DNA from: Lactiplantibacillus plantarum
GTDB lineage: Bacteria > Bacillota > Bacilli > Lactobacillales > Lactobacillaceae
Assembly: GCF_014131735.1 (NCBI RefSeq)
Contig: NZ_CP039121.1
Coordinates: forward strand, 2,604,001 to 2,668,000
Reading direction: 5' to 3'
DNA: 64,000 bases
The notes beneath the pieces are model-generated. The model had not been told where the DNA came from and did not search any database. It worked only from the letters and a program-made list of their open reading frames with translations. The first letter of the stretch is position 1. The number at the start of each line of letters is the position of its first letter. The translations under genes were made by a program, and so were the position numbers. This document shows positions 9,125 to 25,215 of this stretch, piece by piece.

Positions 9125-9148
9125 TGTTTCGACCACAGCTTTCATTAA

Positions 9149-9212: not shown

Positions 9213-9277
9213 AGCGATTCGGTTGATATTAAAACGATTCAATGATTTTAAACTTATTATAAAAGGCGATGGTACTT

Positions 9278-9988
9278 ATGGAACCAATTTACCGCTATTT
9301 TGTACAACCTCAACTTAACTTACTCAACAATACAGTTTACGGATACGAACTACTAATCAAACAACTAACCCCAGACGGCTGGCGTCTGCCTGAATCCTTT
9401 GCCGCAATTAGTTCACAAGTTACCTCTGATCTGCTCATTGCAACAACTAAAATTCTTGGACTAAAAGTTCGTTATTGTGCAGTCAACATCAGTCGCGAAC
9501 AATTGATGGATACAACGGTTGCGAAGGCCATTATTCAAAGTCAGGTTCAGCTCTATCCTGCTAAATTAGTCGTTGAGCTAACTGAGGAACGTAGTCCTAA
9601 GGATTATCCAGATACCATGTTAATCCCACACTTACGGGGGTTCATCGAACATGGTATGCAAATTTCACTTGATGATGTTGGTACCGGAATTAACGATTTC
9701 AAGAGTATCCAAGAAATTTTGCCATTAGCTTCTGAATTAAAATTTGCGTTGCAAAACTTCCGCAGTGATATCAAAGATCCTAAGATTCAGCAAAAGCTCC
9801 ATTTTTGGCGGGCCATCAGTAGTGAATACGGATTGCGTTTAATCTTAGAGGGGATTGAAGACGCCGAAGATGATCGCTTGAGTAGTCACTTCGATATTAA
9901 TCTTCGACAAGGCTATTACTATGGCAAACCGCAATTATTACGCCTACCCGGTGACCCCGTCAACTTTGAATATCCGACAATGAATTAA
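9278..9988 (+). CDS. Stand-alone EAL-domain protein (c-di-GMP phosphodiesterase-like), paralogue 1
   Basis: The protein is almost entirely one EAL domain, with no sensor or membrane segment. Counterparts of catalytic EAL residues are present: Glu of YELLI, Asn of VNIS, Glu of VELTE, the Asp pair of DDVGTG, Lys of LKFA, Glu of LEGIE and Gln of QGYYYGKP. The Asp that normally lies two residues after the catalytic Lys (KxD) is Ala, so hydrolysis of c-di-GMP is probable but unproven. I chose ATG 9278 because AAAAGG at 9261-9266 is 11 bases upstream; ATG 9269 is too close. It is divergent from nox paralogue 1. A close paralogue lies at 24535-25215. Confidence 0.85.
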   Translation: MEPIYRYFVQPQLNLLNNTVYGYELLIKQLTPDGWRLPESFAAISSQVTSDLLIATTKILGLKVRYCAVNISREQLMDTTVAKAIIQSQVQLYPAKLVVELTEERSPKDYPDTMLIPHLRGFIEHGMQISLDDVGTGINDFKSIQEILPLASELKFALQNFRSDIKDPKIQQKLHFWRAISSEYGLRLILEGIEDAEDDRLSSHFDINLRQGYYYGKPQLLRLPGDPVNFEYPTMN

Positions 9989-10009
9989 TTTCTAATATGA
10001 ACAACAACT

Positions 10010-10056
10010 AAATAACGCCTTACGAAATTAACTTAAAATTTCGTAAGGCGTTATTT
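10010..10056. terminator. Bidirectional terminator between the EAL gene and pgm
   Basis: A perfect 20-bp stem, AAATAACGCCTTACGAAATT with its complement, has A-rich and T-rich ends and lies between convergent genes. Confidence 0.9.
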
Positions 10057-10111
10057 ATCACTTAGCATGGCTAGTCAGCTGGGCCGTACAACTTCTGACT
10101 AAATAACCAAT

Positions 10112-11839
10112 TTATTCTTTAATAAACGCTTGAATGGCATCTTCAAATTTCGCTAACTTATCATTAGCTTCTTCTAACGTACTACCTAGCGTTCCAATGT
10201 AGAACTTGATCTTTGGTTCCGTACCAGATGGCCGAATGGCGATCCAAGTGCCATCATTTAAATGATACTTCAAGACATTCGCCTTTGGCAAAGCAATTGG
10301 TGCCGTGTGGCCATCAGCAAAGCTTTCCGTTTGACTCTGGAAGTCTTCAGTCCCAGTGACATCGTAGCCGGCAAAGGCAGTTGGTGCTTCGCTTCGGAAC
10401 TTAGTCATCAGAGCCGCAATCTTATCGCTGCCGCCAACGCCATCAAATTCTTCGGACGTGGTTTGTTCGCGGAAGTAACCGTATTCCTTAAACAAGTCTT
10501 GTAATCCATCATAAAGGTTCTTACCTTGTTGCTTATAATAAGCCGCTACTTCGGCTAAAAGCACTGTGGTTTGAATCGCATCCTTGTCATGAACAAATGG
10601 TTTGATTAAGTAACCGTAACTTTCTTCAAAACCAAACATATAGGTATGTTCGCCAGTGGCTTCAAAATGTTCGATTTGTTCAGCAATATACTTGAAACCG
10701 GTCAAGACATTGATCATCGTGACACCATATGAAGCCGCTACTTTAGTAGCAAATTCACTTGAAACAATTGACTTAACTGCGGCCGCATTGGTCGGTAACG
10801 TCCCGGCATCCTTGTTTGCTTGCAAGATGTAGTGTAACAAGACAGCGGCAATTTGATTACCCGTCAACAGAACATACTCACCATTAGGTTGACGAACAGC
10901 TGTCCCTAACCGGTCAGCATCAGGATCAACCGCAATCAAGACATCCGCACCTTCTTTTTTACCCAAATCAATGGCCATCTTAAAGGCTTCAGGAAATTCA
11001 GGATTAGGGAATTTAACCGTCGAGAATTCAGGGTCAGCCACAGCTTGTTCCTTAACAACACTGAAGTTTTTAAACCCGGCATTCTTCAAAGCCTTTTCGC
11101 CAAGCATCCGGCCAGTCCCATGTAATGGTGTGAAGACTAACTTCATGTCCTTACCGACTTCATCCACTAGTTTTTGATTGATCGTCACTTCTTTGACCTT
11201 AGCTAAGTAGTCCTGATCGACATCATCCCCAATAATGGTTTCCGTCTTATCAGCTAATAATTGTTGTTCATCAGCGACGGCAATCGCAAAGACATCGTCA
11301 ACTTTACGAATATATGATGTGATAAGATCAGATTCCTTAGGTGGCATTTGACCACCATCTTCGCCATAAATCTTGTAGCCATTATATTGCTTCGGATTAT
11401 GGCTCGCCGTAATCATGATCCCTGCGTAAGTATGCAGATGCCGAACGGTAAATGAAAGTTCTGGGGTTGGCCGCAAGCTTTCAAAAACGTATGACTTGAT
11501 ACCATGTTGGCCCAATACTCGCGCAGATTCATGCGCAAAATCTTCTGAATGATGGCGGGAATCAAAACTGATTGCTACCCCGCGTTCCTTAACCTCAGCA
11601 GGCAAGGTATCCATGAAGCGTGCTAACCCTTCCGTTGCTTGACGAACCGTATAAATATTCATCCGGTTGATACCAGGTCCAAGTACCCCCCGCATCCCCG
11701 CGGTTCCGAATTCCATTGGTTCATAAAAGGCGTCTTCTAAGGCGGCGTCATCGCCAGCCATGCCCGTCAATTCTTGTTTTAAACTAGTTTCAAGTGTCGC
11801 TTGGTTTTTCCAGGTATTATAAGTATCCTGCCAACTCAC
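10112..11839 (-). CDS. pgm: Phosphoglucomutase (alpha-D-phosphohexomutase family)
   Basis: Interconverts glucose 6-phosphate and glucose 1-phosphate in the cytoplasm, supplying the substrate for GalU. 575 residues from GTG at 11839, which lies nine bases after GGAG. Longer in-frame starts (TTG 11854) overlap that ribosome binding site. The phosphoserine loop is TASHNPKQYNGYK near residue 145, the metal-binding loop DPDADRLG, the sugar-binding loop GFEESYGY, and the C-terminal phosphate-binding loop RPSGTEPKIKFY. Together they identify the long PgcA-type enzyme of Gram-positives. Monocistronic. galU lies 13 kb away, and the exopolysaccharide genes that probably use UDP-glucose lie in between. 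Confidence 0.95.
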   Translation of the reverse strand: MSWQDTYNTWKNQATLETSLKQELTGMAGDDAALEDAFYEPMEFGTAGMRGVLGPGINRMNIYTVRQATEGLARFMDTLPAEVKERGVAISFDSRHHSEDFAHESARVLGQHGIKSYVFESLRPTPELSFTVRHLHTYAGIMITASHNPKQYNGYKIYGEDGGQMPPKESDLITSYIRKVDDVFAIAVADEQQLLADKTETIIGDDVDQDYLAKVKEVTINQKLVDEVGKDMKLVFTPLHGTGRMLGEKALKNAGFKNFSVVKEQAVADPEFSTVKFPNPEFPEAFKMAIDLGKKEGADVLIAVDPDADRLGTAVRQPNGEYVLLTGNQIAAVLLHYILQANKDAGTLPTNAAAVKSIVSSEFATKVAASYGVTMINVLTGFKYIAEQIEHFEATGEHTYMFGFEESYGYLIKPFVHDKDAIQTTVLLAEVAAYYKQQGKNLYDGLQDLFKEYGYFREQTTSEEFDGVGGSDKIAALMTKFRSEAPTAFAGYDVTGTEDFQSQTESFADGHTAPIALPKANVLKYHLNDGTWIAIRPSGTEPKIKFYIGTLGSTLEEANDKLAKFEDAIQAFIKE

Positions 11840-11883
11840 AAAAACCATCTCCAATTCCGATATTTGTTAGTGCTTACAAAAAT

Positions 11884-11911
11884 AGTATACAACATTGACA
11901 CACTTTACAAA
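11884..11911 (-). promoter_or_regulatory. Predicted pgm promoter
   Basis: The minus strand has TTTGTA (11906-11911), 16 bases, then TATACT (11884-11889), about 45 bases before the pgm start. Confidence 0.5.
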
Positions 11912-12027
11912 GTAAAATTTACTAAGAAAATCCATTAATTAATGCATTTTAAATGCGTAGTGGGCCCGCATCAGTGCGAATACCCATAAATTCTGAAGTG
12001 CTAGTTAGTTCAGTCACTATCAAAACT

Positions 12028-12036
12028 TGCTATAAT
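12028..12036 (+). promoter_or_regulatory. Extended -10 promoter for the DUF3290-DUF421 pair
   Basis: TGCTATAAT (TGn plus a perfect TATAAT at 12031-12036) lies 21 bases before the start codon at 12058. No good -35 is visible, which is common for extended -10 promoters. Confidence 0.6.
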
Positions 12037-12057
12037 AAATCTTATAAGGAGGCCATC

Positions 12058-12510
12058 ATGACTTTTTATTCATACAACTACTTAGTCCATCAAAATAACA
12101 ATCATACTCTTGTCCAACTCGCAGCCATCGGCATCATTATATTAATAATCGCCATACTCAGCTGGTTATGGTACCGCCATAAAACAGACCTAAAATACCG
12201 CGACTTATTCATTATCATGGTTTTATTATTATTGCTGCTCGTCGGCATTCAATTTAATGAATGGCAGACAATCAAAAATAGTTTCAACCAAAAATCACAA
12301 GTGACACAAATTATGCAGCGTGTCGCCAAAGAAAAAGGGGTTCGTAAAACCGCGGTCTGGTCTAATACAAGTTCTGTCAGCAGTGGGATGCTCATTAAAG
12401 TCCATGACCATATCTATAACGTGACGATCAATACGGATGGAAACAGTTATACCCTGACTAAAGCCACACCGATTCAATCAACAATCAATTATGTTAAGGA
12501 GGGGCAATAA
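12058..12510 (+). CDS. DUF3290 family membrane protein
   Basis: A 150-residue protein with two N-terminal membrane segments and a soluble C-terminal domain. It resembles the DUF3290 family, whose members are usually paired with a DUF421 gene as here. ATG 12058 follows AAGGAGGCC; the frame stays open upstream to 11953 but without a start signal. Function unknown. The stop codon is followed at once by the next start (TAA then ATG), so the two are translated as a unit. Confidence 0.75.
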   Translation: MTFYSYNYLVHQNNNHTLVQLAAIGIIILIIAILSWLWYRHKTDLKYRDLFIIMVLLLLLLVGIQFNEWQTIKNSFNQKSQVTQIMQRVAKEKGVRKTAVWSNTSSVSSGMLIKVHDHIYNVTINTDGNSYTLTKATPIQSTINYVKEGQ

Positions 12511-13143
12511 ATGTTTTCATACTGGGATGTGACGATCAAACTGGCCCTCGGGCTATTGACCATCATTCTACAAATCAATCTATCTGGTAAAAGTAACCTT
12601 GCGCCAATCAGCGCCCTCGACCAAGTTCAAAACTACGTTCTCGGTGCAATCGTTGGGGGCATGATTTATAGTACCAGCGTTACTGTTTTACAATACATTT
12701 TAGTGCTTCTCATCTGGACACTGCTAGTGCTGGTCCTGCGATTCCTAACACATCACAATCGCTACGTGAAACGTTTGATTGATGGACAGCCACAGCTATT
12801 GATTAAAAATGGGCAATTACTCGTCAGCACGGCCCTCAAAAATGGGATGAGTGCTAACGATCTGATGTTTCGCTTGCGTACGGAAGGTATCACGGATATT
12901 CGCTACGTCAAACGGGCCGTACTTGAACAAAACGGCCAACTGACGATTACCCAAGTGGGCGACGACGCCGTCAAGTATCCAATAATCGTCGATGGTCAGG
13001 TCAACCTCGATGCGCTTGAAACTAGTAATCATGATGAAGCCTGGTTACTGACCCAATTGCAGGCCCAGCACTATACTGTCAGTGATATTTACCTGGCAAC
13101 GTATACTAACAAGCAATTGCTTCTATTTCCCTATCAACACTAA
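12511..13143 (+). CDS. DUF421 (YetF-like) membrane protein
   Basis: 210 residues: about three N-terminal membrane helices, then a soluble domain (about 90-210) with the YetF/DUF421 look (LIDGQPQLLIKNGQLL, then a segment NGMSANDLMFRLR). Function unknown; the family is widespread in Firmicutes and linked in places to spore or membrane stress. The ribosome binding site AAGGAGGGG lies within the end of the preceding gene, with zero bases between the two frames. Confidence 0.8.
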   Translation: MFSYWDVTIKLALGLLTIILQINLSGKSNLAPISALDQVQNYVLGAIVGGMIYSTSVTVLQYILVLLIWTLLVLVLRFLTHHNRYVKRLIDGQPQLLIKNGQLLVSTALKNGMSANDLMFRLRTEGITDIRYVKRAVLEQNGQLTITQVGDDAVKYPIIVDGQVNLDALETSNHDEAWLLTQLQAQHYTVSDIYLATYTNKQLLLFPYQH

Positions 13144-13195
13144 TTCGCGAACCTTTGGTCATCGTCAAACAATGACTAACGCTATATTTACCAAT

Positions 13196-13240
13196 AAAAA
13201 ATGCGTGGCTGATCTCAATTAAATCAGCTACGCATTTTTT
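13196..13240. terminator. Bidirectional terminator between the DUF421 gene and trxB
   Basis: A 17-bp stem (AAAAATGCGTGGCTGAT with ATCAGCTACGCATTTTT, one mismatch pair) lies between convergent genes, with T-runs on both sides. Confidence 0.9.
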
Positions 13241-13248
13241 AATTTTAT

Positions 13249-14187
13249 TTAATTGTTAACTTTGTCGCCTAAAGCAGTGATATAAGTGTAAACGCCTTGA
13301 CCGGCAGTTCCGCCTTCACCAACCGCCGTCGCAACTTGGCGTAAATCTTTCTTACGAACATCACCGACTGCAAAAATACCAGGGACCTTGGTTTCCATGT
13401 GGTCATTAGTTTCGATCCAGCCGTTTTCGTCAGTAATCCCAAGATTACTGAATGGCTTCGTAATTGGGTTAATACCAACATAGATAAAGACACCATCGAC
13501 CGCAATCTCACTGTCTTCACCAGTCTTATTATTATTAACCTTAACTCCCGTGACCTTCTTATCATCACCGATGATTTCCGTCACGTTGCTATTCCAAACA
13601 AATTCCATCTTTGGATTAGCAAAAGCCCGATCTTGTAAGATTTGTTGTGCCCGCAATTGGTCACGACGATGAATAACCGTCACCTTATCAGCAAGCTGTG
13701 TCAGGTAAGTGCCTTCCTCAATCGCTGAGTCACCGCCACCAACGACAACTACATGCTTGTTACGGAAAAACGCTCCATCACAAACTGCGCAGTATGAGAC
13801 ACCGCGGCCACCATACGTATCCTCGCCAGTAACACCCAGCTTACGATATTCAGAACCAGTCCCAATGACAAGGGCCTTAGTCTCAAACGTATCGCTATCC
13901 GTCGTCACAATTTTAACATCGCCACGATCTTCAACGGATTCGACGCTACCATACGCGTATTCAGCACCAAACTGGGTCGCTGATTCATACATGTCTTTAG
14001 CCAAATCCGGCCCCAAAACAGATTTGAAGCCCGGATAATTTTCAATTGCGGCGGTATTATTCATTTGTCCACCATAGATTCCGCGATCTAATAGTAGCAC
14101 TGATAGATTGGCTCGTGAAGCATAGAGGGCGGCTGTCATGCCGGCAGGCCCCGCACCAATAATAATCACGTCGTAACTCTTTGCCAT
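13249..14187 (-). CDS. trxB: Thioredoxin reductase
   Basis: An NADPH-dependent flavoenzyme that reduces thioredoxin. 312 residues, the low-molecular-weight type. The FAD loop is IIGAGPAGMTAALYASRA, the redox centre CAVC is at residues 133-136, the NADPH loop VVVGGGDSAIEEG and the C-terminal FAD motif GIFAVGDVR. A promoter lies at 14226-14254. The preceding exopolysaccharide operon ends only 92 bases upstream without a visible terminator, so trxB may also receive read-through. Confidence 0.97.
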   Translation of the reverse strand: MAKSYDVIIIGAGPAGMTAALYASRANLSVLLLDRGIYGGQMNNTAAIENYPGFKSVLGPDLAKDMYESATQFGAEYAYGSVESVEDRGDVKIVTTDSDTFETKALVIGTGSEYRKLGVTGEDTYGGRGVSYCAVCDGAFFRNKHVVVVGGGDSAIEEGTYLTQLADKVTVIHRRDQLRAQQILQDRAFANPKMEFVWNSNVTEIIGDDKKVTGVKVNNNKTGEDSEIAVDGVFIYVGINPITKPFSNLGITDENGWIETNDHMETKVPGIFAVGDVRKKDLRQVATAVGEGGTAGQGVYTYITALGDKVNN

Positions 14188-14225
14188 TTCTAAAGACCCC
14201 TTCCACTTAAATTCCTATGACGCTT

Positions 14226-14254
14226 AATATACCCCCAAAATTTACATTTGTCGA
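14226..14254 (-). promoter_or_regulatory. Predicted trxB promoter
   Basis: Minus strand: TCGACA (14249-14254), a 17-base spacer, then TATATT (14226-14231), 38 bases before the trxB start. Confidence 0.65.
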
Positions 14255-14279
14255 CTATCTTGTTTGTACACAACCGAAA

Positions 14280-15137
14280 TCAACGCGCCACATCATACTC
14301 AGTTTCTTTAATGCCAGTATTCATAAAATCATACGGGCTCTTCATCTTTTCCGCATCCCAACTCGCGATACCAACCACCAATAAGATTTCTAATGAATTT
14401 AGGCTGGTTGAGCGTTGTAAATTTTTTTCAAAATTAGATTTAATGCGGTTCGCTGCAATTTGAGCGCCTGGTTGGTCTGAAAATAACAAGATGGCCCACG
14501 TTGGATTATTCTGATCAAGGGAATAGGTAATATCGTTATCTCGCGTTGCCGATGTAATCGTATCCGAGACCAACCGCAATAAATCACGGTATTGTTGTTC
14601 ACTCATCATCCGTCGAATTTCATTATAGTATCGCACCCGAATAATAACCGTGGTAACCGGTAATTGAAACCGTCGATTCGTTTCGATAAACACTTGTGCA
14701 TCTTGAATATATGCGACAGTTGTTCGCAAATTGGTTTGTTCGTCAAAGGCCCCTCGTTTCATAATATCTGCTCGTAGCTTGGCATTGGCCGCTTGCAATT
14801 GTATTAATTGCCGGGTCATGCCATAAAAAGTAGCTGACAAAAGCAACGGCATAATCAACCAAAAAATCATCATCATTGGAATTACGGCGTGATGCGTTGA
14901 ATTAATATAAATCATGACGATTGCCTGAGCAAAGATAAATAGTAAGTTAGCCATTAGACCAGTGACCACACCGAAAAAATAAGTCATCAAAATCATAATG
15001 ATCGTTACACCTAAATAGATCGTATTAAGTGTGATATTAGGGGTTAACGCCATCAGTACGGCCATCGTGCTAATAAGCGCTAAAAATAATAACAAATAAA
15101 CGTCAGCAAAAATAGATGTTCGTTGATCATCATTCAT
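14280..15137 (-). CDS. Membrane protein with degenerate GGDEF domain, probable c-di-GMP receptor (PssE/YdaK type)
   Basis: 285 residues: about four membrane helices (10-105), then a GGDEF-fold domain (about 125-285). The signature GG(D/E)EF is replaced by NNPTW (210-214), followed by the usual AILL strand, so no cyclase activity is expected. The inhibitory-site motif RxxD is intact as RDND (199-202) just upstream. A dead active site with a kept RxxD is the layout of Listeria PssE and Bacillus YdaK, which bind c-di-GMP and switch on exopolysaccharide synthesis. It is the last gene of the cluster and overlaps the BcsB-like gene by eight bases. The receptor role is inferred from homology and context. 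Confidence 0.8.
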   Translation of the reverse strand: MNDDQRTSIFADVYLLLFLALISTMAVLMALTPNITLNTIYLGVTIIMILMTYFFGVVTGLMANLLFIFAQAIVMIYINSTHHAVIPMMMIFWLIMPLLLSATFYGMTRQLIQLQAANAKLRADIMKRGAFDEQTNLRTTVAYIQDAQVFIETNRRFQLPVTTVIIRVRYYNEIRRMMSEQQYRDLLRLVSDTITSATRDNDITYSLDQNNPTWAILLFSDQPGAQIAANRIKSNFEKNLQRSTSLNSLEILLVVGIASWDAEKMKSPYDFMNTGIKETEYDVAR

Positions 15138-17289
15138 GGTGCTGCCCCTTTCGCTCTAACAAACCACTTTTACGCATAATCAGGAATCCTGCCAGTAAAA
15201 TGATCACCACGATTAGCAACGCAATACCTAAATAAATCACTAGCTTAGAATTCTTCTGAATAACTGTTTTGGCGTTCACGCCATCATTAACTGTCTTATG
15301 CTTCTTAAAACGATAATTATAATGATTATTATCGTGATCGACGACAATCGCATCACCTTGATACTGGGCAATGTTCCGTTGAAAATTGATTTGAGTAGAC
15401 GCCCGGTAGACATCACTACTCTTCGCGGCGGTTACAACTAGCAATCCCGCTCGCTGATTATACGGTGAGCGTAACAGCTGGGCAGTGCCAATATTTTGAC
15501 CATACGTTTTCTCAATACTAAGTTTCTCATTTGACAGGAACCCAGTAAAATGTCGATTATATTTAAAATACAGCTTAGAATTCAGAGACCGAATAAACGC
15601 GTTTTGAGCTGGCGTCCCAAACGCAATTACGTTGCTATTTTTGAGTACCGTTTTACTAGGCTGATGGGTATAAAACTGAATATTGCCAGTATTACTTTGC
15701 GCATAAGTTCCAATAAGATTAAATATATTAGTTAGCGTTTGAAAATCGTCACTAGTCAGCGTTCGTGGTCGAACAACTGCAATGTGGTTAAAGGTCGCAT
15801 TCTTCAAAAACAAATATGGATAATTCGTAAATAATAAAGCTGCGACTGGCTTTGACTTAATCGTCGCTTCAGAATCAGCCTTAATCAGCGCCCACGGTGT
15901 TTGGGCATTATCACTTTGAGCCGCCCCACTCATCTCAAGATCAAAGGCGACACGAATCGTGAAACTATGCCCTAGCGCTTTTCCTTTCGGCAGACTAACG
16001 GTCAACTCATCATTATTGGCACGCGCTGCTGTGAGTCTTTTACTACCTAAAGCGGAATCATTTACATAAACCGTTACAAGCGATCGTTTAAAATCCAGGT
16101 TCTTAGCATAGCGAAAATGAATCCGGATTTTCGAACCATCAGCATTGGTCCGATCAACAGGGAGACTAACAAAATAAGTACTTGACTGATGTTTAGCGCC
16201 AGTCAAATAATCATCGCTGGTCGTCAATTGCTTTTTGCCACCGTATTGTAGCTCAGAGGTAAACGTCTGTGTGCTGTTACTGATGTATTTCGTATCTGCT
16301 ACTGTTTCCTGCATTAATTCCTGATTAGCAATAAACCGGCTTGCCTTCTGCAATAATTTGGTATTGAAGGCACTCACAATTAAATAATGTTTACCATCAT
16401 GCGTATATGTCTTGATAACTGCATGTTCTCGCAGTCGCTGACGATCAAGTTGCTGCTGAAACACTTTAGGCAAATGCTGATAAGTCGCAATGACCAACTG
16501 ATAATCAGCCTGTTTAGCCACCGCGGTATCTGCCGTTGTTACCGGAATCTGTGTATTCTCTGTGGTAATGGTCCGCGCCTCACCCGTTAACGCATACATG
16601 CCAGCTGACAACTCTGCGTTTGATGCTTGATGTGGCAGCGTTATGACTGAATTAGCATTCGCGATGGTATCAGTCCCAGAAAAATGCGCATAAAAAGATT
16701 TAATAGCCGTTGTTGGGGGTTGCAAGCGATACTCAAAGTTAGCATTCGCCCCATTGTAAATCGTCAACCAGTTGGCAGGTGTCTGCACCAATTGAGAACT
16801 TTGCTGGCCTTTTTTATTCAGGATCTGCCCACTGATCTTTAACTGATTTTCACCTTGAATTAACCGCAGTGGGACTTCGATAGCCCTAGTTTGGAGTCCA
16901 GTCTCCTTTTTGGGCCGGAATGAGTAAAACTTCGTTCCGTTCAACGACAACGTAATGTCAGATGTCTCCCGATTGGCCAACTGCGAAATTTGGAAATTTA
17001 GATTAATCGTCACTTTTTTGACTTGCCAATAATCCATTTTAATAAAATACATATTGGCCTCAACTGCATCACCAGACAGTGTCGTTGTTGAGTTTTGAAA
17101 AGGTTGCGTATAAGTTTGTAGATTATTCGCTGCCTGCCCACTGATAGGACAGCTTAGATTACTACTCATCCCAATTAATAAAGCGAGCATGCCTATTAAC
17201 CAGAAGAACCACTTACTGATACCGTTTGGTTTTATACCACTTTGCTTGTTGATGAAAAACTTGTTCACGAACATACCCCACCATTCCAT
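15130..17289 (-). CDS. BcsB-like exopolysaccharide synthase accessory protein (PssD/YdaN type)
   Basis: About 719 residues: an N-terminal hydrophobic segment (27-47), a large extracytoplasmic beta-rich region, and a C-terminal membrane helix (about 690-712) followed by a short basic tail. This is the architecture of BcsB-like partners of cellulose-synthase-type enzymes, and it lies directly after the GT2 gene as in Listeria pssC-pssD and Bacillus ydaM-ydaN. The start is uncertain. ATG 17289 overlaps the GT2 gene by 77 bases; ATG 17274, just after GGTGGGGT, is an alternative. It probably guides the nascent polymer outside the membrane (family inference). Confidence 0.75.
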   Translation of the reverse strand: MEWWGMFVNKFFINKQSGIKPNGISKWFFWLIGMLALLIGMSSNLSCPISGQAANNLQTYTQPFQNSTTTLSGDAVEANMYFIKMDYWQVKKVTINLNFQISQLANRETSDITLSLNGTKFYSFRPKKETGLQTRAIEVPLRLIQGENQLKISGQILNKKGQQSSQLVQTPANWLTIYNGANANFEYRLQPPTTAIKSFYAHFSGTDTIANANSVITLPHQASNAELSAGMYALTGEARTITTENTQIPVTTADTAVAKQADYQLVIATYQHLPKVFQQQLDRQRLREHAVIKTYTHDGKHYLIVSAFNTKLLQKASRFIANQELMQETVADTKYISNSTQTFTSELQYGGKKQLTTSDDYLTGAKHQSSTYFVSLPVDRTNADGSKIRIHFRYAKNLDFKRSLVTVYVNDSALGSKRLTAARANNDELTVSLPKGKALGHSFTIRVAFDLEMSGAAQSDNAQTPWALIKADSEATIKSKPVAALLFTNYPYLFLKNATFNHIAVVRPRTLTSDDFQTLTNIFNLIGTYAQSNTGNIQFYTHQPSKTVLKNSNVIAFGTPAQNAFIRSLNSKLYFKYNRHFTGFLSNEKLSIEKTYGQNIGTAQLLRSPYNQRAGLLVVTAAKSSDVYRASTQINFQRNIAQYQGDAIVVDHDNNHYNYRFKKHKTVNDGVNAKTVIQKNSKLVIYLGIALLIVVIILLAGFLIMRKSGLLERKGQHHE

Positions 17290-18439
17290 GTGCAGCCACT
17301 GCCAGCCACATCTGACTATAGACTAAGTACATAAAAACAATAATCATTAAATTGGCAATCGTCATTTCCCCTTTTTCCGTTGTAATTGTCACGAACGTAC
17401 TGATTACAAATGTGATGATGGCCATTAGCCATAGTATATTGCTGAACCCTACCAAGTCGGAGTGTGCGATTCCAGCTACTGAAAGGACGAACATACTATC
17501 TGACAAAATCAGCGACGTCATTAATAAAAAGTAAATCGATAGAAAGTACAACAAGTCAAATCGAATTGGCCGCCCCGTTTTAGTGAAAAGTAGCCGTGCG
17601 TTTTTTAAAATGACATAAATATTGCCTTTGACCCACCGTGTCCGTTGATGAAACCACACATCTAAAGTTTGGGGTTCTTGTTCCCAGGTAACGGCTAGGG
17701 GTTGAAAGCGAATCCGATATCCCATTCGATAAACGCGAAAACTGATTTCCGTATCTTCCGCCAGTGCTTTAACATCCCAACCACCAATTTTCTCAAGAAT
17801 ATCTCGCCGAATAACATAATTGGTCCCCGGGATCGTGCATAATTTAAACAACTTTTCCCGGCCCGCCTGAGCCATCCACTGAAATGATAGCGTCTCAATA
17901 TTGATAAAGCGCGTCAGTATTGATGCATTCTTGTTCCGCGTACGAAATTTACCAATCACTGCCGCTAGCCGTTGATCACTCATTAACTCAGCCACCAAAT
18001 ACCGTAATGCCGTTCTTTGAGGTGTATTATCCGCATCATAAATCGAAATCAACGAACCACGTGCCTGTTTAAGGCCAATATTAAGCGCATTCGACTTTCC
18101 CTTACCACCATTAGTCTTATCAGTATTGATCACTTTCAAGTTTCGATGTGGATACAATGACTGCACTTCCGCCAGTAATTCAGCAGAATTATCATCCGAA
18201 TTATCATTAATAATAATAATTTCATAACGATCCTTGGGATAATCAAAATTCAATAACGACTGTAACGTTTTGACGATTACAATGCCCTCGTTATGCGCGG
18301 GCACCATAATTGAGACAAAGGGTACCTTTACCGGTAACTGAGGTTCAGGACGTCGCACCTTTTGTAAATAATTCACATAGCCCGCAATCGTTAAGACAAC
18401 GTTCACGACTAGAATGCCCCAAATCGACAATACAGCCAA
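17213..18439 (-). CDS. Processive family 2 glycosyltransferase, exopolysaccharide synthase (PssC/YdaM type)
   Basis: A membrane GT2 enzyme of the cellulose/hyaluronan synthase type: one N-terminal helix, a cytoplasmic catalytic domain and about four C-terminal helices. The processive signature is complete: D79 in INDNSDD, DAD (135-137), ED (228-229) and QRTRW (265-269). It should polymerise a nucleotide sugar and export the chain; the sugar is not readable. TTG 18439 is the first standard start but has no ribosome binding site. GGGAGG at 18474-18479 fits an in-frame ATT at 18466 seven bases later, which would add nine residues. It belongs to the six-gene exopolysaccharide cluster. Confidence 0.88.
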   Translation of the reverse strand: MAVLSIWGILVVNVVLTIAGYVNYLQKVRRPEPQLPVKVPFVSIMVPAHNEGIVIVKTLQSLLNFDYPKDRYEIIIINDNSDDNSAELLAEVQSLYPHRNLKVINTDKTNGGKGKSNALNIGLKQARGSLISIYDADNTPQRTALRYLVAELMSDQRLAAVIGKFRTRNKNASILTRFINIETLSFQWMAQAGREKLFKLCTIPGTNYVIRRDILEKIGGWDVKALAEDTEISFRVYRMGYRIRFQPLAVTWEQEPQTLDVWFHQRTRWVKGNIYVILKNARLLFTKTGRPIRFDLLYFLSIYFLLMTSLILSDSMFVLSVAGIAHSDLVGFSNILWLMAIITFVISTFVTITTEKGEMTIANLMIIVFMYLVYSQMWLAVAAHGMVGYVREQVFHQQAKWYKTKRYQ

Positions 18440-18504
18440 GAATAGAAAATAATCTAAAATACTAATATTAATTCCTCCCGTTATGATAGCAACGATGCCG
18501 TCCC

Positions 18505-20079
18505 CTACTTAGGTTTAAACATATTCAAATAAACCCGCCGACCAATCACAATAAACAAAACAAAAATTCCCAATGTCACCGAAAAGAAAATCAATAACAC
18601 ACTCCCCTGAGTTTTAAAGAACCGATTCATCCAACTTTCTGCTGGTTTTACTGCAGCCAAGGTTGTCGTCGCTGGCGCATTATCAGTCACTTGTATGGGC
18701 GCACCGTTTAACAAATACGTTCCACGCCGATAACTGATCGTCGCTGTTCCACTCTTGAGCATCGTCGTTGTCATTTGTTGTGCAGGGTCAAACCACTGAT
18801 AGTTCATTCGGCTGAGTTGTCTAGTCAAATTGTGTAAACTCGTTTCACTATCTGGCATAGTCATTGTAAGTGCGGTGGGAATGGCAAAATTCAGCGCTAA
18901 CTTACTGAGCTGATCACCAGATTTCAGCGTTTCAAAGGATTTAGCACTAACCCCATAAAAGGCCTGATCAAATACCGTTCCTTGATTATCTTGATGGGCA
19001 TAAGTCGTCACCTTAGGATCGGGTAATAAGAGAACCTGATTCGCCTTAGTTAAAGCGTTCTGGCGGTAGACCCTGTCCTGGTTCCAATAAGCGGAAGCAC
19101 TAATTCCAACTGGATAAACCTGATTCTGTGCTAACTGAATGACGTAACTGTCCATCAACTTGCTCAGTCCAGGACCGCTACTTGCCGTAACACCACCAAC
19201 GACAGGTGTTTTTAAGAAAATAACCCCACCACGGTTTTCGATTAACCGTAAAACTTTGGCAAAGCGTTGATACGCTTTGAATTTGCCATTAGTGCCAACC
19301 GTTGTTGTGCTAACCGCAAATGGAATCCCTTGTTGATATAAGGTCGCACTGAGTTTATTCAACAAATTAAGATTAGAATACGGCGTTACCTTAGTAATCG
19401 TTAACAATGGTTGATAATGACTACGGGTACCGAATAATGTTGCCATTGTCTGAGTAGCTAACACTAAACTATAACCTCCAGTTGAAAGATAAGGTAGATA
19501 ACCGTATCGACCAACGATGGTTCCATAAGGATATTCATGTTTTAGCGATGATTGTGCCCTCAAATAGCCGATTGTTTTGGCCTTAGCGGGTAACTTTGTG
19601 AGTGCCGTCATACTGCTCATAAATGGTAATAATTGGCGAACTTGTTGATCATTGCTCTGAAGAAAGAACTGTTGTTGGTAAACTTTGACCGGTTGGGCAT
19701 TCAATTGTTGGGCCTCAATAGCGGTCAGATTTGTGCCAATATGCAGCTTCGTACCGCTGAACTGCTTACGATCCTTGATAAACGCTGCATTGTTGAGCTT
19801 AGTCTGCGGCCAGTTAATTAGCGTAATAACGCCTTGATAGTGTCGTAGTTCGCCAGCATGATAATCTTCGGCCGCCACCGTTTTGATGCTAATGTGTAGA
19901 CCGGTCAGGATTCGTTGAATCATCGCGATTTTGGTTTGATCATTATTGGCCACATTCCGCGAATCATAAACCAGCATAACGTGTGTTGCTGATGTTTGAG
20001 CGTGGATCTCTGTCGGCAATAACCAGCTACAAAGTATAATGACACCCATGATTACCAACTGCCATAACCGCTTATGCAT
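18505..20079 (-). CDS. Secreted, membrane-anchored DUF2334-like protein (PssB/YdaL type), probably non-catalytic
   Basis: 524 residues: signal peptide or anchor (about 5-28), extracytoplasmic region, and a C-terminal helix followed by a basic tail. The segment LLTITKVTPYSNLNLL, then QQGIPFAVS, resembles the DUF2334 polysaccharide-deacetylase-like core, where family members carry an Asp pair; here the position reads TKV. A His-containing motif I would expect downstream is also not visible. It may therefore be a structural rather than enzymatic part of the synthase. ATG 20079 follows GAGGAGG at six bases and overlaps the previous stop by eight bases. A longer frame to 20103 contains that ribosome binding site and is less likely. 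Confidence 0.65.
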   Translation of the reverse strand: MHKRLWQLVIMGVIILCSWLLPTEIHAQTSATHVMLVYDSRNVANNDQTKIAMIQRILTGLHISIKTVAAEDYHAGELRHYQGVITLINWPQTKLNNAAFIKDRKQFSGTKLHIGTNLTAIEAQQLNAQPVKVYQQQFFLQSNDQQVRQLLPFMSSMTALTKLPAKAKTIGYLRAQSSLKHEYPYGTIVGRYGYLPYLSTGGYSLVLATQTMATLFGTRSHYQPLLTITKVTPYSNLNLLNKLSATLYQQGIPFAVSTTTVGTNGKFKAYQRFAKVLRLIENRGGVIFLKTPVVGGVTASSGPGLSKLMDSYVIQLAQNQVYPVGISASAYWNQDRVYRQNALTKANQVLLLPDPKVTTYAHQDNQGTVFDQAFYGVSAKSFETLKSGDQLSKLALNFAIPTALTMTMPDSETSLHNLTRQLSRMNYQWFDPAQQMTTTMLKSGTATISYRRGTYLLNGAPIQVTDNAPATTTLAAVKPAESWMNRFFKTQGSVLLIFFSVTLGIFVLFIVIGRRVYLNMFKPK

Positions 20080-21568
20080 CTTGGTCCTCCTCTCGATAGG
20101 CATGCCACAAACGGTGATTTAAGGTATCCGAAATAAACAGCAAGACAATTAGATCAATGCTAACCGGAACCATAAATAAATGTTTTGCTAAGTCTGCATC
20201 ACCATCACCAATGATTGAAATAATTGGCACAAAAATAAAAATCGACAAAAAACCTAATACTAAGAAAAACCGCAAGACGCCTTCGATTCGCTGCTGACGC
20301 AAATCATTATAAAAACCAACCAGATAAACCATCACTAACGCAACTACTAGAAGACAATTAAAGGCAAACTTTTGTGGAAAAAAAGCCCCGGCAATCTGAC
20401 TATACGTTGTAAAGAATGTTAGTTGTTTTCCTGCGGGTGCTCCTGACGCTTGGGTGTAATCCCCAACCGCTTTAACTTGAGTAATCATGACATCGGCGGC
20501 GGCAAGATCCATCAATTTGCCAAACTGCTTCAGATGAGTCGCATAATACTTTAATACCCAACCAACTCCCAGCTTAGAAACCAAGTTTTTCTTAACATAA
20601 GAACCAGAAGCTTGAATCGTCGCAAACTGTTTAGCGTAGTAGTCTTGTGACTGCATTAAGGCATACTGCTCATCAATCCCATTCTGAGCAAGATCCTTAC
20701 TAGGATCATCGGTTTGGGTCAAGATGCCGTGCGAAAAAGTCTGATAGGTATTGATATCCACAAAGTCTTGACCGATCAATTTATAGGTCAGTCCACCCGT
20801 GATCAAGATCATGACCATTCCCGCAAGCAAGTACACACGCATTGCGTTAAAGTGTGGCAAAAATAGTAACCCAATCGTCACGACCACAAAGCTCAATGCT
20901 AGCGGGGCGTTTTGTGACTTGTTAGTTATCAATAGAACTGTACAAACAAAATACAATGCAACGAGTGGCCACCGCCGCCGATATCGTTGTCGCGCTAGCA
21001 GTAAGACGGCTGAAAATGAGATTAAAGTTAGTCCTAACATTTGGGGCTCAGCAAAAAAAGAATTTAAATACAATGTAAATGAAGAATCACCAAATACTAG
21101 AACGACTAATCCCGCAATCAGATAATTTCGAAAACGCTTGGCAGGATACGTCAAAGCATCCGTCAATAAATAAATGCCACCCAGATAAGGAATCACATTC
21201 ACAATACCCATAAACCGGATATCAAATACCGTCTTACTATAAAATAATTTATTGAGACCGATAGCCACTTTCACAAATAAGGGCTGAGATGAAAAGTTCA
21301 CCGATCGATAGTCGTTGTAGTACTTCATCAAGCCAAATTTCTGCGTTACAAAATCAAAATAGTTGTAGTGCGTTCCCAGCAACTTATAAATACCATTGGT
21401 ATACATCGCCCGATAAAAATCGCCATTATCAGCCAGTCCGTTAATGGGCGGTACAAATGCCACATAAGCAGCCAAACCAGCACAAAGTAAAGTTGCGAGT
21501 AGTGGGGGTGGCATTAGCTGTTGAAACAGCCGCGTTGCGCGCCAAAATTGTTGTTTTAACTTAGTCAC
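20072..21568 (-). CDS. Polytopic membrane protein of the exopolysaccharide operon (PssA position)
   Basis: 498 residues with about 10-11 membrane helices and two sizeable outer loops (about 40-100 and 265-365). The first loop begins with an acidic NGDFYR segment, recalling GT-C fold enzymes, but I do not recognise a catalytic motif with confidence. Position and size match the first gene of Listeria pssA-E. GTG 21568 follows TTGAGG at suitable spacing. It lies 17 bases after the GH8 gene and overlaps the next gene by eight bases, so it is firmly part of the operon. Confidence 0.65.
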   Translation of the reverse strand: MTKLKQQFWRATRLFQQLMPPPLLATLLCAGLAAYVAFVPPINGLADNGDFYRAMYTNGIYKLLGTHYNYFDFVTQKFGLMKYYNDYRSVNFSSQPLFVKVAIGLNKLFYSKTVFDIRFMGIVNVIPYLGGIYLLTDALTYPAKRFRNYLIAGLVVLVFGDSSFTLYLNSFFAEPQMLGLTLISFSAVLLLARQRYRRRWPLVALYFVCTVLLITNKSQNAPLALSFVVVTIGLLFLPHFNAMRVYLLAGMVMILITGGLTYKLIGQDFVDINTYQTFSHGILTQTDDPSKDLAQNGIDEQYALMQSQDYYAKQFATIQASGSYVKKNLVSKLGVGWVLKYYATHLKQFGKLMDLAAADVMITQVKAVGDYTQASGAPAGKQLTFFTTYSQIAGAFFPQKFAFNCLLVVALVMVYLVGFYNDLRQQRIEGVLRFFLVLGFLSIFIFVPIISIIGDGDADLAKHLFMVPVSIDLIVLLFISDTLNHRLWHAYREEDQDA

Positions 21569-21585
21569 AAAGATTACCTCAATCT

Positions 21586-22749
21586 CTAATTAAACGCTGC
21601 GTTTAGCGCCGTCAAATTACTATATGAATACACTTGCTTGGTTTTGACATCCCCAATACCACCGTTAATCGGCGAACTGTCTTGCTGTACCTGCAATCGC
21701 CAAACATTATTCATCGCAACTTGATAATGCTTTTCATCACCCAGCGTCGCAAAGATCGACGCCGCTAACGCATAGTTGGCCGCTGATTCACCACCAACAC
21801 TCACCGTGCCCCTTGTCGTATAACCGTTTGCTAAATCACGGTGGGTGACCCGTTGAATCAGCCATCGCCGACTAGTCGCTTTTAGGTGACCAACTTCTGC
21901 TAAATGCAATAAGGTTTCCAAAGCCTCTGATGTATTCAGGTTACCATCACTATATTGGCTAGTGGTCCATTGGTAACTTTTTGCATACAAGGGAAAAACA
22001 TCACCTAAATAACCGCCCTTAAGGACAATCAATTGCTTCTTATACGCACTCCGGCCCTTCTTAGTATCTTGTTCAAAATACTTAAGTGTTCGTAAATCAA
22101 AGTAAGCTAAACTGCCCGTCGTAGTTGCCTTACGCGCATGAACATCGTAATAATCGACCAGGTGCCCATCCTTGATTGTTGTATTGACCAGATTCTGATA
22201 ACGTTGCGTGGCTTTCTGGCGATAATGATTAGTATGATGTGCTTGATCATAAGTAAGTAGCGCACGGATTATCCGTAAATCGTCCAACGTAGCGTTGACC
22301 GCATACCGCTTCTTGGTACGTGGATCATAACGATAACTGAACAACCCGTTTTCATTAAAGGTCGCTTTCGTCTGGCGATAGAATTGCCGAAATTGTGCCC
22401 ATTGGCGAGTCGTAACCAGGTACTGTAGCCACATCCCCGATGACTCACTCAACATTTCATGACCAGTGGCCGTTGCAGTCGTCCGTTTACGCGTATCTAA
22501 ATAGTTCGTATAAAGCCCTTGCTTCGTCAAAAGTCCTCGTTTAATAAATGCAGCTAGTTTTACCCGCCGTTGCTTTGACACCTTAGTCGCATAGGCCGTC
22601 GTCGTTACAAATCCACTTGGCGCATGTCGTGGTGTACTAACCGTAGTTTGTTTCCGACACCCACTGACAACTGCAGTCAGCATCACTAACACGACCAGCC
22701 ACCCAAGGTAACGCAGACGTCCTGGACGTCTATTGTAAATCCTTGTCAT
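21586..22749 (-). CDS. Glycoside hydrolase family 8 lipoprotein (PssZ/YdaJ/BcsZ type)
   Basis: An extracellular lipid-anchored glycosidase probably acting on the polymer made by this cluster. The signal peptide ends in the lipobox VVSGC (C31 counted from ATG 22749). The catalytic domain shows the GH8 proton-donor region SESSGM (E102) and the second acidic region LDDLRIIRALL (D157). ATG 22749 gives the sensible lipoprotein signal and overlaps the preceding oxidase gene by 20 bases; a longer frame to 22818 would bury the signal peptide. The overlap suggests co-transcription with the oxidase. The role in trimming or releasing polymer is inferred from PssZ. Confidence 0.8.
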   Translation of the reverse strand: MTRIYNRRPGRLRYLGWLVVLVMLTAVVSGCRKQTTVSTPRHAPSGFVTTTAYATKVSKQRRVKLAAFIKRGLLTKQGLYTNYLDTRKRTTATATGHEMLSESSGMWLQYLVTTRQWAQFRQFYRQTKATFNENGLFSYRYDPRTKKRYAVNATLDDLRIIRALLTYDQAHHTNHYRQKATQRYQNLVNTTIKDGHLVDYYDVHARKATTTGSLAYFDLRTLKYFEQDTKKGRSAYKKQLIVLKGGYLGDVFPLYAKSYQWTTSQYSDGNLNTSEALETLLHLAEVGHLKATSRRWLIQRVTHRDLANGYTTRGTVSVGGESAANYALAASIFATLGDEKHYQVAMNNVWRLQVQQDSSPINGGIGDVKTKQVYSYSNLTALNAAFN

Positions 22750-24142
22750 TTTGCTTGGCCCAATCGCCATAGGCCGTAATTCGTGGGTGATTGCGGCCTG
22801 CCTGGCGTTCTTGTTCAATCGCTTGTTGGGCGACGAGGTTCAGATAATTGAAGGGTTCATCAAAATTAGGTGAGAATAACATATCCACAAATGCTAGATC
22901 ATCGATGGTGTTTCCATTTTGAATCGCGATTGATAACGCATTAGCAGACTGTGCCACTTCATGCGCACTTAAGAACTGAGCACCGAGAATTTTACGATTT
23001 TCCGGATTATAAATTAATTCAATCATCAGTTTCGCCGTACTTGGCATGTAAGCTGGTCGCCAGTTGCCCTCATAAGTCACCCGTTCAGCTGGAATATGAT
23101 TCAATTTCGCCATTGCCAGTGTTAACCCCGTGGTTGCCAGCGTGTGATCGAAGAGTTGCATGGCCGATGTCGCTTGAGTCCCCATATATCGTTGCTGGTT
23201 ACCAAAAACATTGGCCCCCGCTAACGCACCCTGCCGAACCGCATTGGTTGCTAATGGCGTATAAGCCGAACGTCCAGTTGGATTGAAGTTAACGACACAA
23301 GAATCACCAGCAGCGTAAATATCTGGGTCAGAGGTCTGAACGTAATCATTGATGATAATGGCACCGTGCTTATCCATCTCAACTTGACCGCGTAACAGTT
23401 CCGTATTGGGAACAAACCCAGTTCCGACAATTGCTAAATCAGCATTAAAATCGCCTTGATTGGTTTCAATGACAAGTTCACCATCATCATTACCAGTAAA
23501 GGCAGTTACTTGGTGATTCAATAGCACGTTCACGCCATGATCTTTTAATAGCTGAACTGCTTGGTCTGAAATTTCTTTACTAATGTAATTATTCAAAATT
23601 TGATCATGCGATTGGAATAACGTTACTTCATGATGTGTATTCGCATAACTTTCAGATAATTCGGTTCCAATATAACCCGCCCCAATGATTGCGATCCGCT
23701 GATTGTCTTGGGCTGTTTGGTAAATTTCCTGTGCTTGGCTGTAGGTCTTGCATAATAGGACCTTAGACTCATCGATTCCAAAAATCGGCGGGACCGCAAC
23801 ATTTGAACCAGTCGTCATAATCAATTTATCATAAGTATCGCCAAACACTTTTCCAGTAGTCATGTCAACCACTTGTAAGGTCTTCGACTGGGCGTCAATT
23901 TTTAACACGTTATGTTTGGTTCTAACCATTGCCCCCAACTTGGCTAACGTTTCTGGTGACGAATAGAACATATCCTCCAAGTGATTGACCTTTCCCCCGA
24001 GATAAAGGTAGATCCCACATGATAAGAATGAAATATTGTCATCACGCTCATAAATCGTGACCGTAGCCTCCGGATGATCCTTCAGAATTTGTGCAGCCGC
24101 AGCGGTCCCCGCATGCGTACATCCAACAATTACAATCTTCAT
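22730..24142 (-). CDS. nox: NADH oxidase / CoA-disulfide reductase family flavoprotein, paralogue 2
   Basis: 470 residues, closely similar throughout to the protein at 7766-9124. The FAD loop is IVIVGCTHAG, the redox cysteine C42 in SFLSCGIYLYLGGK, the NAD loop IAIIGAGYIGTELSE and the second FAD motif PDIYAAGD. Probably oxidises NADH with oxygen; the reduction product is not determined by the sequence. Its 3' end overlaps the GH8 gene by 20 bases, so it appears to head the exopolysaccharide operon. Upstream, across a 392-base gap, lies a divergent EAL gene. A TATAAT at 24189-24194 (minus strand) may be its -10. Confidence 0.85.
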   Translation of the reverse strand: MKIVIVGCTHAGTAAAAQILKDHPEATVTIYERDDNISFLSCGIYLYLGGKVNHLEDMFYSSPETLAKLGAMVRTKHNVLKIDAQSKTLQVVDMTTGKVFGDTYDKLIMTTGSNVAVPPIFGIDESKVLLCKTYSQAQEIYQTAQDNQRIAIIGAGYIGTELSESYANTHHEVTLFQSHDQILNNYISKEISDQAVQLLKDHGVNVLLNHQVTAFTGNDDGELVIETNQGDFNADLAIVGTGFVPNTELLRGQVEMDKHGAIIINDYVQTSDPDIYAAGDSCVVNFNPTGRSAYTPLATNAVRQGALAGANVFGNQQRYMGTQATSAMQLFDHTLATTGLTLAMAKLNHIPAERVTYEGNWRPAYMPSTAKLMIELIYNPENRKILGAQFLSAHEVAQSANALSIAIQNGNTIDDLAFVDMLFSPNFDEPFNYLNLVAQQAIEQERQAGRNHPRITAYGDWAKQNDKDLQ

Positions 24143-24534
24143 TTCATTTTGCTCCCAATTATAATTTTATTTATTTAACCATAGGTATATTATAACCGCT
24201 TTACTGCGCAAATACATAACTCTAGTTAATATAAATACAGGTCATGATGAAACATAACTACTTTTAAAAACCAATCAGCGATACGCTGGCAAGCAGTTAT
24301 TCTCACAATATCGTCCATACCAGCTTTGCCAGGTAACCACTAATTGACTTTTTACTCATTTTCAGAAAATTACCTTGTTCACCAAGCAGTTTAGCACAAT
24401 CATCATTAGCCCAATTGATAATCGATACCATGCAAAAAAAAGATGGTGTCAAACAGTTTCACTTATTCATTTTTTGGTATAGTATGTATTAGGAAGCATC
24501 AAATCGTGTTAATTCAAGTCTAAGGAGTTCCCTT
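24143..24534. other. Intergenic region between nox paralogue 2 and the second EAL gene
   Basis: This 392-base stretch holds no gene. It contains a likely -10 (TATAAT, minus strand, 24189-24194) for the oxidase/exopolysaccharide unit and an extended -10 (TGGTATAGT, 24475-24483) for the EAL gene. It also has a spaced inverted repeat, CTGGCAA (24286-24292) with TTGCCAG (24326-24332). I see no Pho boxes or riboswitch here, and the palindromes of the other nox/EAL gap are absent. Confidence 0.45.
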
Positions 24535-25215
24535 ATGTACCGCTATTTTATTCAGCCCCAGTTAGATAAATTTAATAATTCACTGATTGGCTACGAGATG
24601 CTGATTCGCTATCGTGAGACTGATCAGGACCGGTGGACCTTACCAGAAAGCTTCGATAATATTCCGATCGATGTACAAGTCAGCTTACTAAAGGCTACGG
24701 CTAGTGAGCTTGCATTAAAAATCGGGTCAGTATCAATTAACTTTAATCGCAAGCAATTTCTAAATGATGATATTGCTGCCGCAGTCATTGATGCTCAGAA
24801 AAAGCTATTCCCGGTTCATGTTATCGTCGAAGTCACAGAAGAACCCGGTGAAGATACGTTTACACTGGCGGCGATGCAACAACAAATTGATAAGTACAAG
24901 GCTAACGGCCTACAATTTAGCATTGATGACGTTGGCACGGGAATCAACGTTTACGACCACATTAAACCGCTACTCGAATCGGCCGAAGAAATCAAATTCG
25001 CCATGCAAAACTTTCGGGCCGAAGATCGTGAAAACGAGATTCCCATTCAATTAAAATTCTGGCGCGACATTGCGGTACAACATGATATCCGGTTAATTCT
25101 AGAGGGTGTTGAAAACGATGCCGAAGATCAAATGGCGAATGACTTAAATATTTCACTACGCCAAGGTTATTATTATGGCAAGCCCCATTTATTCAAATTA
25201 AAAGCCGACCACTAG
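24535..25215 (+). CDS. Stand-alone EAL-domain protein (c-di-GMP phosphodiesterase-like), paralogue 2
   Basis: 226 residues, a single EAL domain, similar over its full length to the protein at 9278-9988. Conserved positions: Glu of YEMLI, Asn of INFN, Glu of VEVTE, Asp pair of DDVGTG, Lys of IKFA, Glu of LEGVE, Gln of QGYYYGKP. As in its paralogue, the KxD aspartate is Ala. Probably degrades or senses c-di-GMP and so sets the input to the PssE-like receptor nearby; this link is inferred from context. The ATG follows AAGGAG. It ends before a bidirectional terminator shared with galU. Confidence 0.85.
   Translation: MYRYFIQPQLDKFNNSLIGYEMLIRYRETDQDRWTLPESFDNIPIDVQVSLLKATASELALKIGSVSINFNRKQFLNDDIAAAVIDAQKKLFPVHVIVEVTEEPGEDTFTLAAMQQQIDKYKANGLQFSIDDVGTGINVYDHIKPLLESAEEIKFAMQNFRAEDRENEIPIQLKFWRDIAVQHDIRLILEGVENDAEDQMANDLNISLRQGYYYGKPHLFKLKADH

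Follow-up and report, generated by a model that had tools for sequence, protein, structure and literature searches.

The locus described here raises two questions: whether it encodes an exopolysaccharide (EPS) synthase under the control of cyclic di-GMP (c-di-GMP), and from which signal the EAL-domain proteins encoded beside it could take their input. It lies in a stretch of 64,000 nucleotides from Lactiplantibacillus plantarum (assembly GCF_014131735.1, contig NZ_CP039121.1, positions 2,604,001 to 2,668,000), hereafter called the window, which is C1:2604001-2668000 of a 3.25 Mb genome; coordinates are those of the window unless preceded by C1. Lactobacilli are mostly aerotolerant fermenters found in food and gut, and c-di-GMP control is, to our knowledge, thinly described in them. 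Judged from its genes, the locus is a real EPS operon of the pss/yda type known from Listeria and Bacillus, with its own predicted c-di-GMP receptor. The operon itself is of a known kind; the unreported part of the locus is the pairing of NADH oxidase genes with EAL genes, of which no report was found among the open-licence papers listed, judged by titles and abstract openings. We hold it likely that the locus as a whole encodes a pss/yda-type EPS synthase with an I-site switch, with c-di-GMP breakdown by EAL proteins and a probable tie to oxygen or NADH.

The exopolysaccharide operon and its predicted receptor

Six open reading frames are present on the minus strand at 14280-22749, where an initial annotation, made from the sequence alone, had placed them and likened them to the Listeria pss and Bacillus yda operons. 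Their content and the I-site receptor bear this likeness out. In transcription order, and with the names GH126 and pssA to pssE given by analogy, they encode a GH126 glycosidase lipoprotein (21586..22749), the polytopic WsfD-family protein PssA (20072..21568; NCBIfam NF051875, 484.7 bits), the DUF2334-related PssB (18505..20103), the GT2 synthase PssC (17213..18439, start not settled), the BcsB-family protein PssD (15130..17289; PF03170, 120 bits), and PssE, a degenerate GGDEF protein (14280..15137). The GT2, BcsB-like and degenerate GGDEF genes appeared in the family scan as first described, and the WsfD match agrees with the polytopic protein proposed for pssA. The DUF2334 label given to pssB holds for the family, since PF10096 was matched at E ≤ 0.1 in 9 of 17 orthologues (best 4.4e-8), but the window protein alone gives it only a weak match (E 0.088). 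The synthase scored 179.9 bits with PgaC_IcaA and 95.6 bits with CelA, both below the cut-offs.

The first gene had been called a GH8 lipoprotein. This identity was dropped in favor of GH126: the GH8 score (17.7 bits) is below the cut-off of 24, GH8 was matched at E 0.1 in one of 14 orthologues, and the glycosidase profile matched PDB entries 3ren (1.4e-64) and 6r2m (5.4e-26). These are the two GH126 structures, CPF_2247 and PssZ, according to the available part of PMC7479077, which also explains the earlier naming of PssZ as GH8. With both GH126 structures found by the profile, the operon has the PssZ-family glycosidase expected of the pss/yda type. Residues E125, D179, D180, and D241 were invariant in all 14 aligned glycosidases.

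Of the 26 stretches that carry the operon and were compared, 10 belong to the genus, 14 to the rest of the family, and two (L060 and L061) to the order outside that family. The order pssA-E was kept in all 26, with split frames in L071 and L075, and the GH126 gene stood first in 24, last in L068, and was not seen in L061. Operon genes overlapped or were closely spaced across the loci examined. Identity between L060 and the window proteins ranged from 29% (PssB) to 68% (PssC). Operons of this kind are not rare among lactobacilli, given a GT2 match at 67% identity or more in 81 of 397 family genomes, fragments included; a further 38 had only a relative of 32-39% identity (both counted by hand). 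No minus-strand terminator-like site was found in the gaps from nox2, the gene upstream of the glycosidase gene, to pssE, and one lies inside pssA; terminator-like sites were fewer than in shuffled sequence, and promoter-like sites were about as many.

PssE is the sole GGDEF match in the window and scores 19.7 bits, below the cut-off of 23.8. Its GGDEF motif is lost, and the I-site is kept as RDND, five residues before DQNNP, which is followed by TWA. The RxxD I-site is retained in 22 of 25 orthologues. The structural model (mean predicted local distance difference test score, pLDDT, 87.3; predicted template modelling score, pTM, 0.57) shows a GGDEF fold and, at the N terminus, four helices. 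A sequence search of the PDB with PssE returned nothing at E 0.1; in a Foldseek search with the model, GGDEF structures ranked top, some of them c-di-GMP complexes (best E 1.9e-9). PssE is therefore predicted to be a membrane receptor that would bind c-di-GMP.

Pairing of NADH oxidase and EAL genes

Each EAL gene in the window faces an oxidase gene across a common intergenic region. The initial annotation did not mention the oxidases. EAL-1 (9269..9988, plus strand, start possibly the ATG at 9278) is divergent from nox1 (7766..9145, minus strand), which encodes a flavoprotein of the NADH oxidase family, and EAL-2 (24535..25215, plus strand) is divergent from nox2 (22730..24142, minus strand), of the same family, with 24143..24534 between them. 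The two oxidases are 50% identical and the two EAL proteins 42%. Neither oxidase reached the equivalog cut-off of NOXase_Strep (600), the scores being 386.4 and 350.8 bits, the latter for Nox1. Despite this, Nox2 probably works like an NADH oxidase, since its best PDB match is one (5er0, 2.2e-150); the NADPH oxidase 2cdu was also matched (5.6e-142). Oxidases of the 5er0 and 2cdu type form water.

The genus survey covered 21 genomes, 18 of them EAL-bearing, with 86 EAL and 87 oxidase matches. An oxidase gene was located within 2 kb of 39 of the 86 EAL matches, divergent in 35 cases and codirectional in four, and such pairs occurred in all 18 EAL-bearing genomes and involved 36 of the 87 oxidases. 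The rough chance of an oxidase gene within 2 kb is 0.008 per EAL gene (about 0.8%), an estimate that ignores shared ancestry. In the scan of named family genomes, restricted to the best 80 of 254 loci, 48 of the 80 focal EAL genes had an oxidase gene no more than 1.5 kb away. These belonged to 11 named genera (Lactiplantibacillus, Secundilactobacillus, Lapidilactobacillus, Agrilactobacillus, Lentilactobacillus, Companilactobacillus, Loigolactobacillus, Paucilactobacillus, Schleiferilactobacillus, Lacticaseibacillus, and Pediococcus) and one metagenome-assembled genome, and the orientation of the pair differed between genera. Because the query was an alignment of mostly oxidase-linked EAL proteins, the genus count is the less biased one. 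Of the 32 unpaired loci, 29 were Levilactobacillus or Levilactobacillus-like, and the others were L157 and two that the scan scored as lacking an oxidase: L086, with its EAL gene at a contig end, and L121, with its oxidase gene in two pieces. Named-genome loci and the other loci fetched overlap in species, and their counts were not added together. In Levilactobacillus (e.g., L087, L089-L093, L095, and L096), a cyclase neighbor replaces the oxidase beside the same EAL subfamily. Some Companilactobacillus loci have a second oxidase gene on the other side of the pair.

On a tree of 72 oxidases (57 linked to EAL genes and 15 unlinked), the label "EAL-linked" required two changes, against a mean of 13.8 after shuffling; the unlinked sequences came from the genus alone, the root was arbitrary, and a long-branch warning applies. 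One unlinked clade inside the linked ones (L159, at C1:1813244-1814647, with L162, L169, and L173) has Ser at the position of the SCG cysteine, in the motif SFVSSG. The L068 oxidase also has Ser there, and the L067 oxidase is a distant relative on this tree.

The pair is also attached to pss itself. The glycosidase ATG at 22749 overlaps the last 20 nt of nox2, and the spacing between the two genes ranged from −104 to +21 nt in nine genus loci and was −4 nt in L076 and L123 (longest frames). Nox2 is possibly encoded by the first gene of a joint nox2-GH126-pssA-E transcript. Elsewhere, other arrangements were observed: EAL-oxidase-cyclase-GH126-pssA-E on one strand in L069, pssA-E-GH126-EAL-oxidase-cyclase in L068, an EAL gene divergent from oxidase-GH126-pssA-E-cyclase in L076, and an oxidase and an EAL gene just beyond pssE in six Secundilactobacillus loci (L088, L121, L122, L124, L127, and L131). 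EAL genes of the EAL-1/EAL-2 type were present in 21 of 23 genomes with pss and in 13 of 98 without it (121 genomes, matched to those of the GT2 survey by inference; Fisher p 1e-12, with shared ancestry ignored).

Predicted enzymes for making and breaking c-di-GMP

The initial annotation had held that no active cyclase lies in the window and that the signal is made elsewhere, and the genome search agrees with it. Five PF00990 matches were found. One is the degenerate match in the window, another is weak and belongs to a 670-residue protein that we take to be GdpP, and three exceed the cut-off (C1:1028675, 600241, and 679285). All three carry GGEEF and are predicted to be intact diguanylate cyclases. 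According to the available part of PMC13297897, an assay kit was used to measure c-di-GMP in a strain of L. plantarum.

Of the five EAL matches in the genome, four carry the catalytic residues; the fifth is a degenerate membrane protein. EAL-1 and EAL-2 are single-domain proteins scoring 75.8 and 70.0 bits against the Pfam EAL cut-off of 31.3. Residues E21, N69, E99, D131, D132, K154, E190, and Q210, which we take to be the catalytic ones, were invariant in 12 of 12 aligned EAL proteins, and EAL-1 and EAL-2 are predicted to be c-di-GMP phosphodiesterases. The first description of the locus as having two built-in EAL proteins thus stands to the extent that two EAL genes, each with all the catalytic residues, lie near the operon; they are not built into pss, since oxidase-EAL pairs persist where pss is absent. 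GGDEF-EAL fusions with frames of 619-621 residues were seen in G001 and G014 (L174 and L175) and probably in G002 (C1:1312296); the L175 fusion has an altered GGDEF motif.

Proposed model and alternative explanations

In the proposed model, the GT2 synthase would polymerise and export a sugar chain together with the BcsB-like, polytopic, and DUF2334-like proteins. The synthase would be turned on by c-di-GMP at the I-site of the degenerate GGDEF membrane protein, and the GH126 lipoprotein would trim or release the polymer. The signal would be made by the three intact cyclases outside the window and removed by EAL phosphodiesterases, including EAL-1 and EAL-2. Each of these two genes is half of an old NADH oxidase-EAL pair, through which an oxygen or NADH input could act by common expression or by protein contact. 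Because an oxidase gene runs into the first operon gene and the EAL genes stand in old oxidase pairs, oxygen or NADH status probably has a bearing both on the making of the polymer and on the breakdown of c-di-GMP. For EAL-1 and EAL-2, which lack a sensor domain and regularly have an oxidase as neighbor, the oxygen or NADH state is the best candidate input. The sequences themselves show which genes are present, their order and overlaps, the I-site, the predicted fold, the catalytic residues, the pairing, and the co-occurrence, whereas binding of c-di-GMP, the enzyme activities, co-transcription, and redox control of the EAL proteins are inferred.

Several observations weigh against this model. 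Among the 16 pss loci outside the genus (L058-L061 and L067-L078), which were chosen without knowledge of their gene content, only four had both an oxidase and an EAL gene beside pss, and one of the four, L067, is the locus with the distantly related oxidase. Among the 10 genus pss loci, L044 has neither an oxidase nor an EAL gene. The 29 Levilactobacillus and Levilactobacillus-like loci among the best 80 of 254 lack an oxidase at the EAL gene, with a cyclase close by in 28 of them, and a small open reading frame lies between oxidase and EAL in some Companilactobacillus loci. The receptor I-site is lost in L071, L122, and L124. No fusion of NADH oxidase and EAL was present among 86 family EAL matches, one 619-residue frame (G002) being unread. 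The 63 nox/EAL intergenic regions scanned, which include some species twice, held no convincing Rex or PerR box, and none that was good lay between nox2 and EAL-2. The best Rex-like site had two mismatches (L045), as did the PerR-like sites in L043 and L080 (the same species), in L156, and upstream of EAL-1 in the window.

The missing boxes would also suit an ordinary pss operon that has settled among old neighbors, the oxidase-EAL pairs being functionally unconnected to each other or to pss. Consistent with this, the EAL-2/nox2 pair stands at the same site without pss in L039, L043, L051, and L053, and no pair was found near 12 of the 16 pss loci outside the genus. We nevertheless regard this explanation as rather unlikely: the pair recurs in 11 genera among the best 80 of 254 loci with changed orientation, is far above chance in the genus, and adjoins pss in several arrangements, namely in the six Secundilactobacillus loci, in L123 (Lentilactobacillus), and in L068, L069, and L076.

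A second alternative reverses the direction of control, with the EAL proteins acting on the oxidase as c-di-GMP sensors or scaffolds and not as phosphodiesterases. A precedent for binding comes from L. acidophilus, whose degenerate EAL protein PdeB binds c-di-GMP without hydrolysis, as far as PMC6123363 was available, and EAL-1 itself has ELLIK, with K replacing the R of ExLxR, which also counts against the proposed model. However, the invariant catalytic positions set the aligned EAL proteins apart from the degenerate EAL at C1:876373 of this genome, and PdeA of L. acidophilus is described in the same source as an active EAL phosphodiesterase. Such a role appears quite improbable.

The proposed model of an EPS synthase with EAL breakdown and a redox tie has a stronger form, in which the Lactobacillaceae NADH oxidase would be the sensory subunit of the bare EAL phosphodiesterase. 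It would read oxygen or NADH, and contact with the EAL protein or local redox chemistry at the active cysteine would set c-di-GMP breakdown and hence the synthesis of matrix polysaccharide. We offer this form tentatively and think it unlikely; if true, oxygen would be coupled to c-di-GMP by a switch that has no PAS, haem, or globin domain. The recurring gene pairing beside a polymer operon gives a testable idea of the signal that the pathway reads. It suggests a possible input for single-domain EAL proteins without sensor domains, and the oxidase-EAL neighbors of Listeria-like EPS machinery point to a possible part for oxygen or redox state in its control.

Chromosomal context and polymer sugar

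The genes around the operon keep their place where it is absent. On the far side lies trxB (13249..14187, minus strand; named by resemblance), with a promoter-like site at 14254-14226, such sites being about as frequent in shuffled sequence, and divergent from it a DUF3290 and YetF/DUF421 gene pair (11953-13143), conserved in the genus. YetF-like genes were also seen near the oxidase-EAL pair in Companilactobacillus loci L144, L146, L147, L151, and L153. The outer neighbors are pgm (10112..11854, minus strand) and galU (25313..26233, minus strand), both named by resemblance and by the initial annotation.

In L039, L043, L051, and L053, all of the genus, the order galU-EAL2-nox2-trxB-YetF-DUF3290-pgm is retained without pss at the site, with gaps between nox2 and trxB of 179, 146, 478, and 4272 bp, respectively. 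The pss-less site has extra genes in two of these loci: in L051 trxB is followed by an EAL gene, and in L053 it is preceded by a set resembling the L. acidophilus gts genes. A 52-residue stretch of pssE in L051 and pieces of GH126 and pssE in L040 indicate that pss was lost at least in these two, and in L046 a gts-like set stands beside pss. The interval between nox2 and trxB behaves as a slot for EPS genes of the c-di-GMP type, holding pss, its remnants, or a gts-like set instead of pss (L053) or alongside it (L046).

The initial annotation had counted pgm as inside the block and galU as beside it, with both leading to UDP-glucose. UDP-glucose supply was dropped as evidence: the two genes hold their place without pss in the four loci above, so that they tell nothing about the polymer sugar, and they are judged ancestral neighbors outside the module. 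A cellulose-like polymer of UDP-glucose fed by pgm and galU is accordingly very improbable; the GT2 does match CelA and cellulose synthase structures, but scores higher with PgaC, both below cut-off, and the Listeria polymer consists of N-acetylmannosamine (ManNAc) with galactose (available parts of PMC5422440 and PMC7479077). The higher PgaC score and a PF02350 UDP-GlcNAc 2-epimerase family gene in this genome make a ManNAc-type polymer, like that of Listeria, no less likely than a glucan.

The window had no Rfam match at the gathering threshold, and hence no known c-di-GMP riboswitch; the window scan found no tRNA.

Comparison with known systems

As in Listeria, the locus includes a PssZ-family glycosidase, Listeria PssZ presumably being lmo1913. 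In Listeria monocytogenes pssA-E, as far as described in the available part of PMC4125290, the GT2 is PssC and the last gene encodes PssE, a receptor whose GGDEF domain is degenerate and whose RxxD stands five residues ahead of DKDDA. The window operon likewise has its GT2 third among pssA-E and ends on the gene for a degenerate GGDEF receptor, again with RxxD five residues ahead of an altered motif, if DQNNP is read, without alignment, as the counterpart of DKDDA. Unlike in Listeria, whose proteins were compared by description, the glycosidase gene is here the first of the operon and is preceded by an NADH oxidase gene.

The ydaJ-N operon of Bacillus subtilis likewise serves EPS production, depends on cyclases, and has as its receptor YdaK, a membrane protein with a degenerate GGDEF domain (available part of PMC5422440). 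The receptor gene ydaK is second there, by its name, whereas the receptor gene is last here.

Among lactobacilli, the nearest published case is L. acidophilus, where c-di-GMP enzymes were tested and an EPS-linked receptor was described, with a gts operon containing pdeB and a dgcA-pdeA pair (available part of PMC6123363). This genome has a counterpart of each: an EAL-cyclase gene pair at C1:678-680 kb, and a gts-like set at C1:874.5-877 kb (874500-877200, L015). The latter, a second EPS gene set of the c-di-GMP type in this genome, encodes a 208-residue protein, a GT2 about 30% identical to PssC, and a degenerate membrane EAL protein of 274 residues that resembles the published description of Lp_2714. 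The gts receptor of L. acidophilus, as described in that source, is a degenerate EAL protein and not an I-site GGDEF protein like PssE; its gene is last in the operon, whereas the EAL gene is first in the gts-like set here. No paper describing this pss-type operon in lactobacilli was found, by title or abstract, among the open-licence papers listed. Nox2 is close to the NADH oxidase 5er0 and the NADPH oxidase 2cdu, and what sets it apart is its pairing with an EAL gene.

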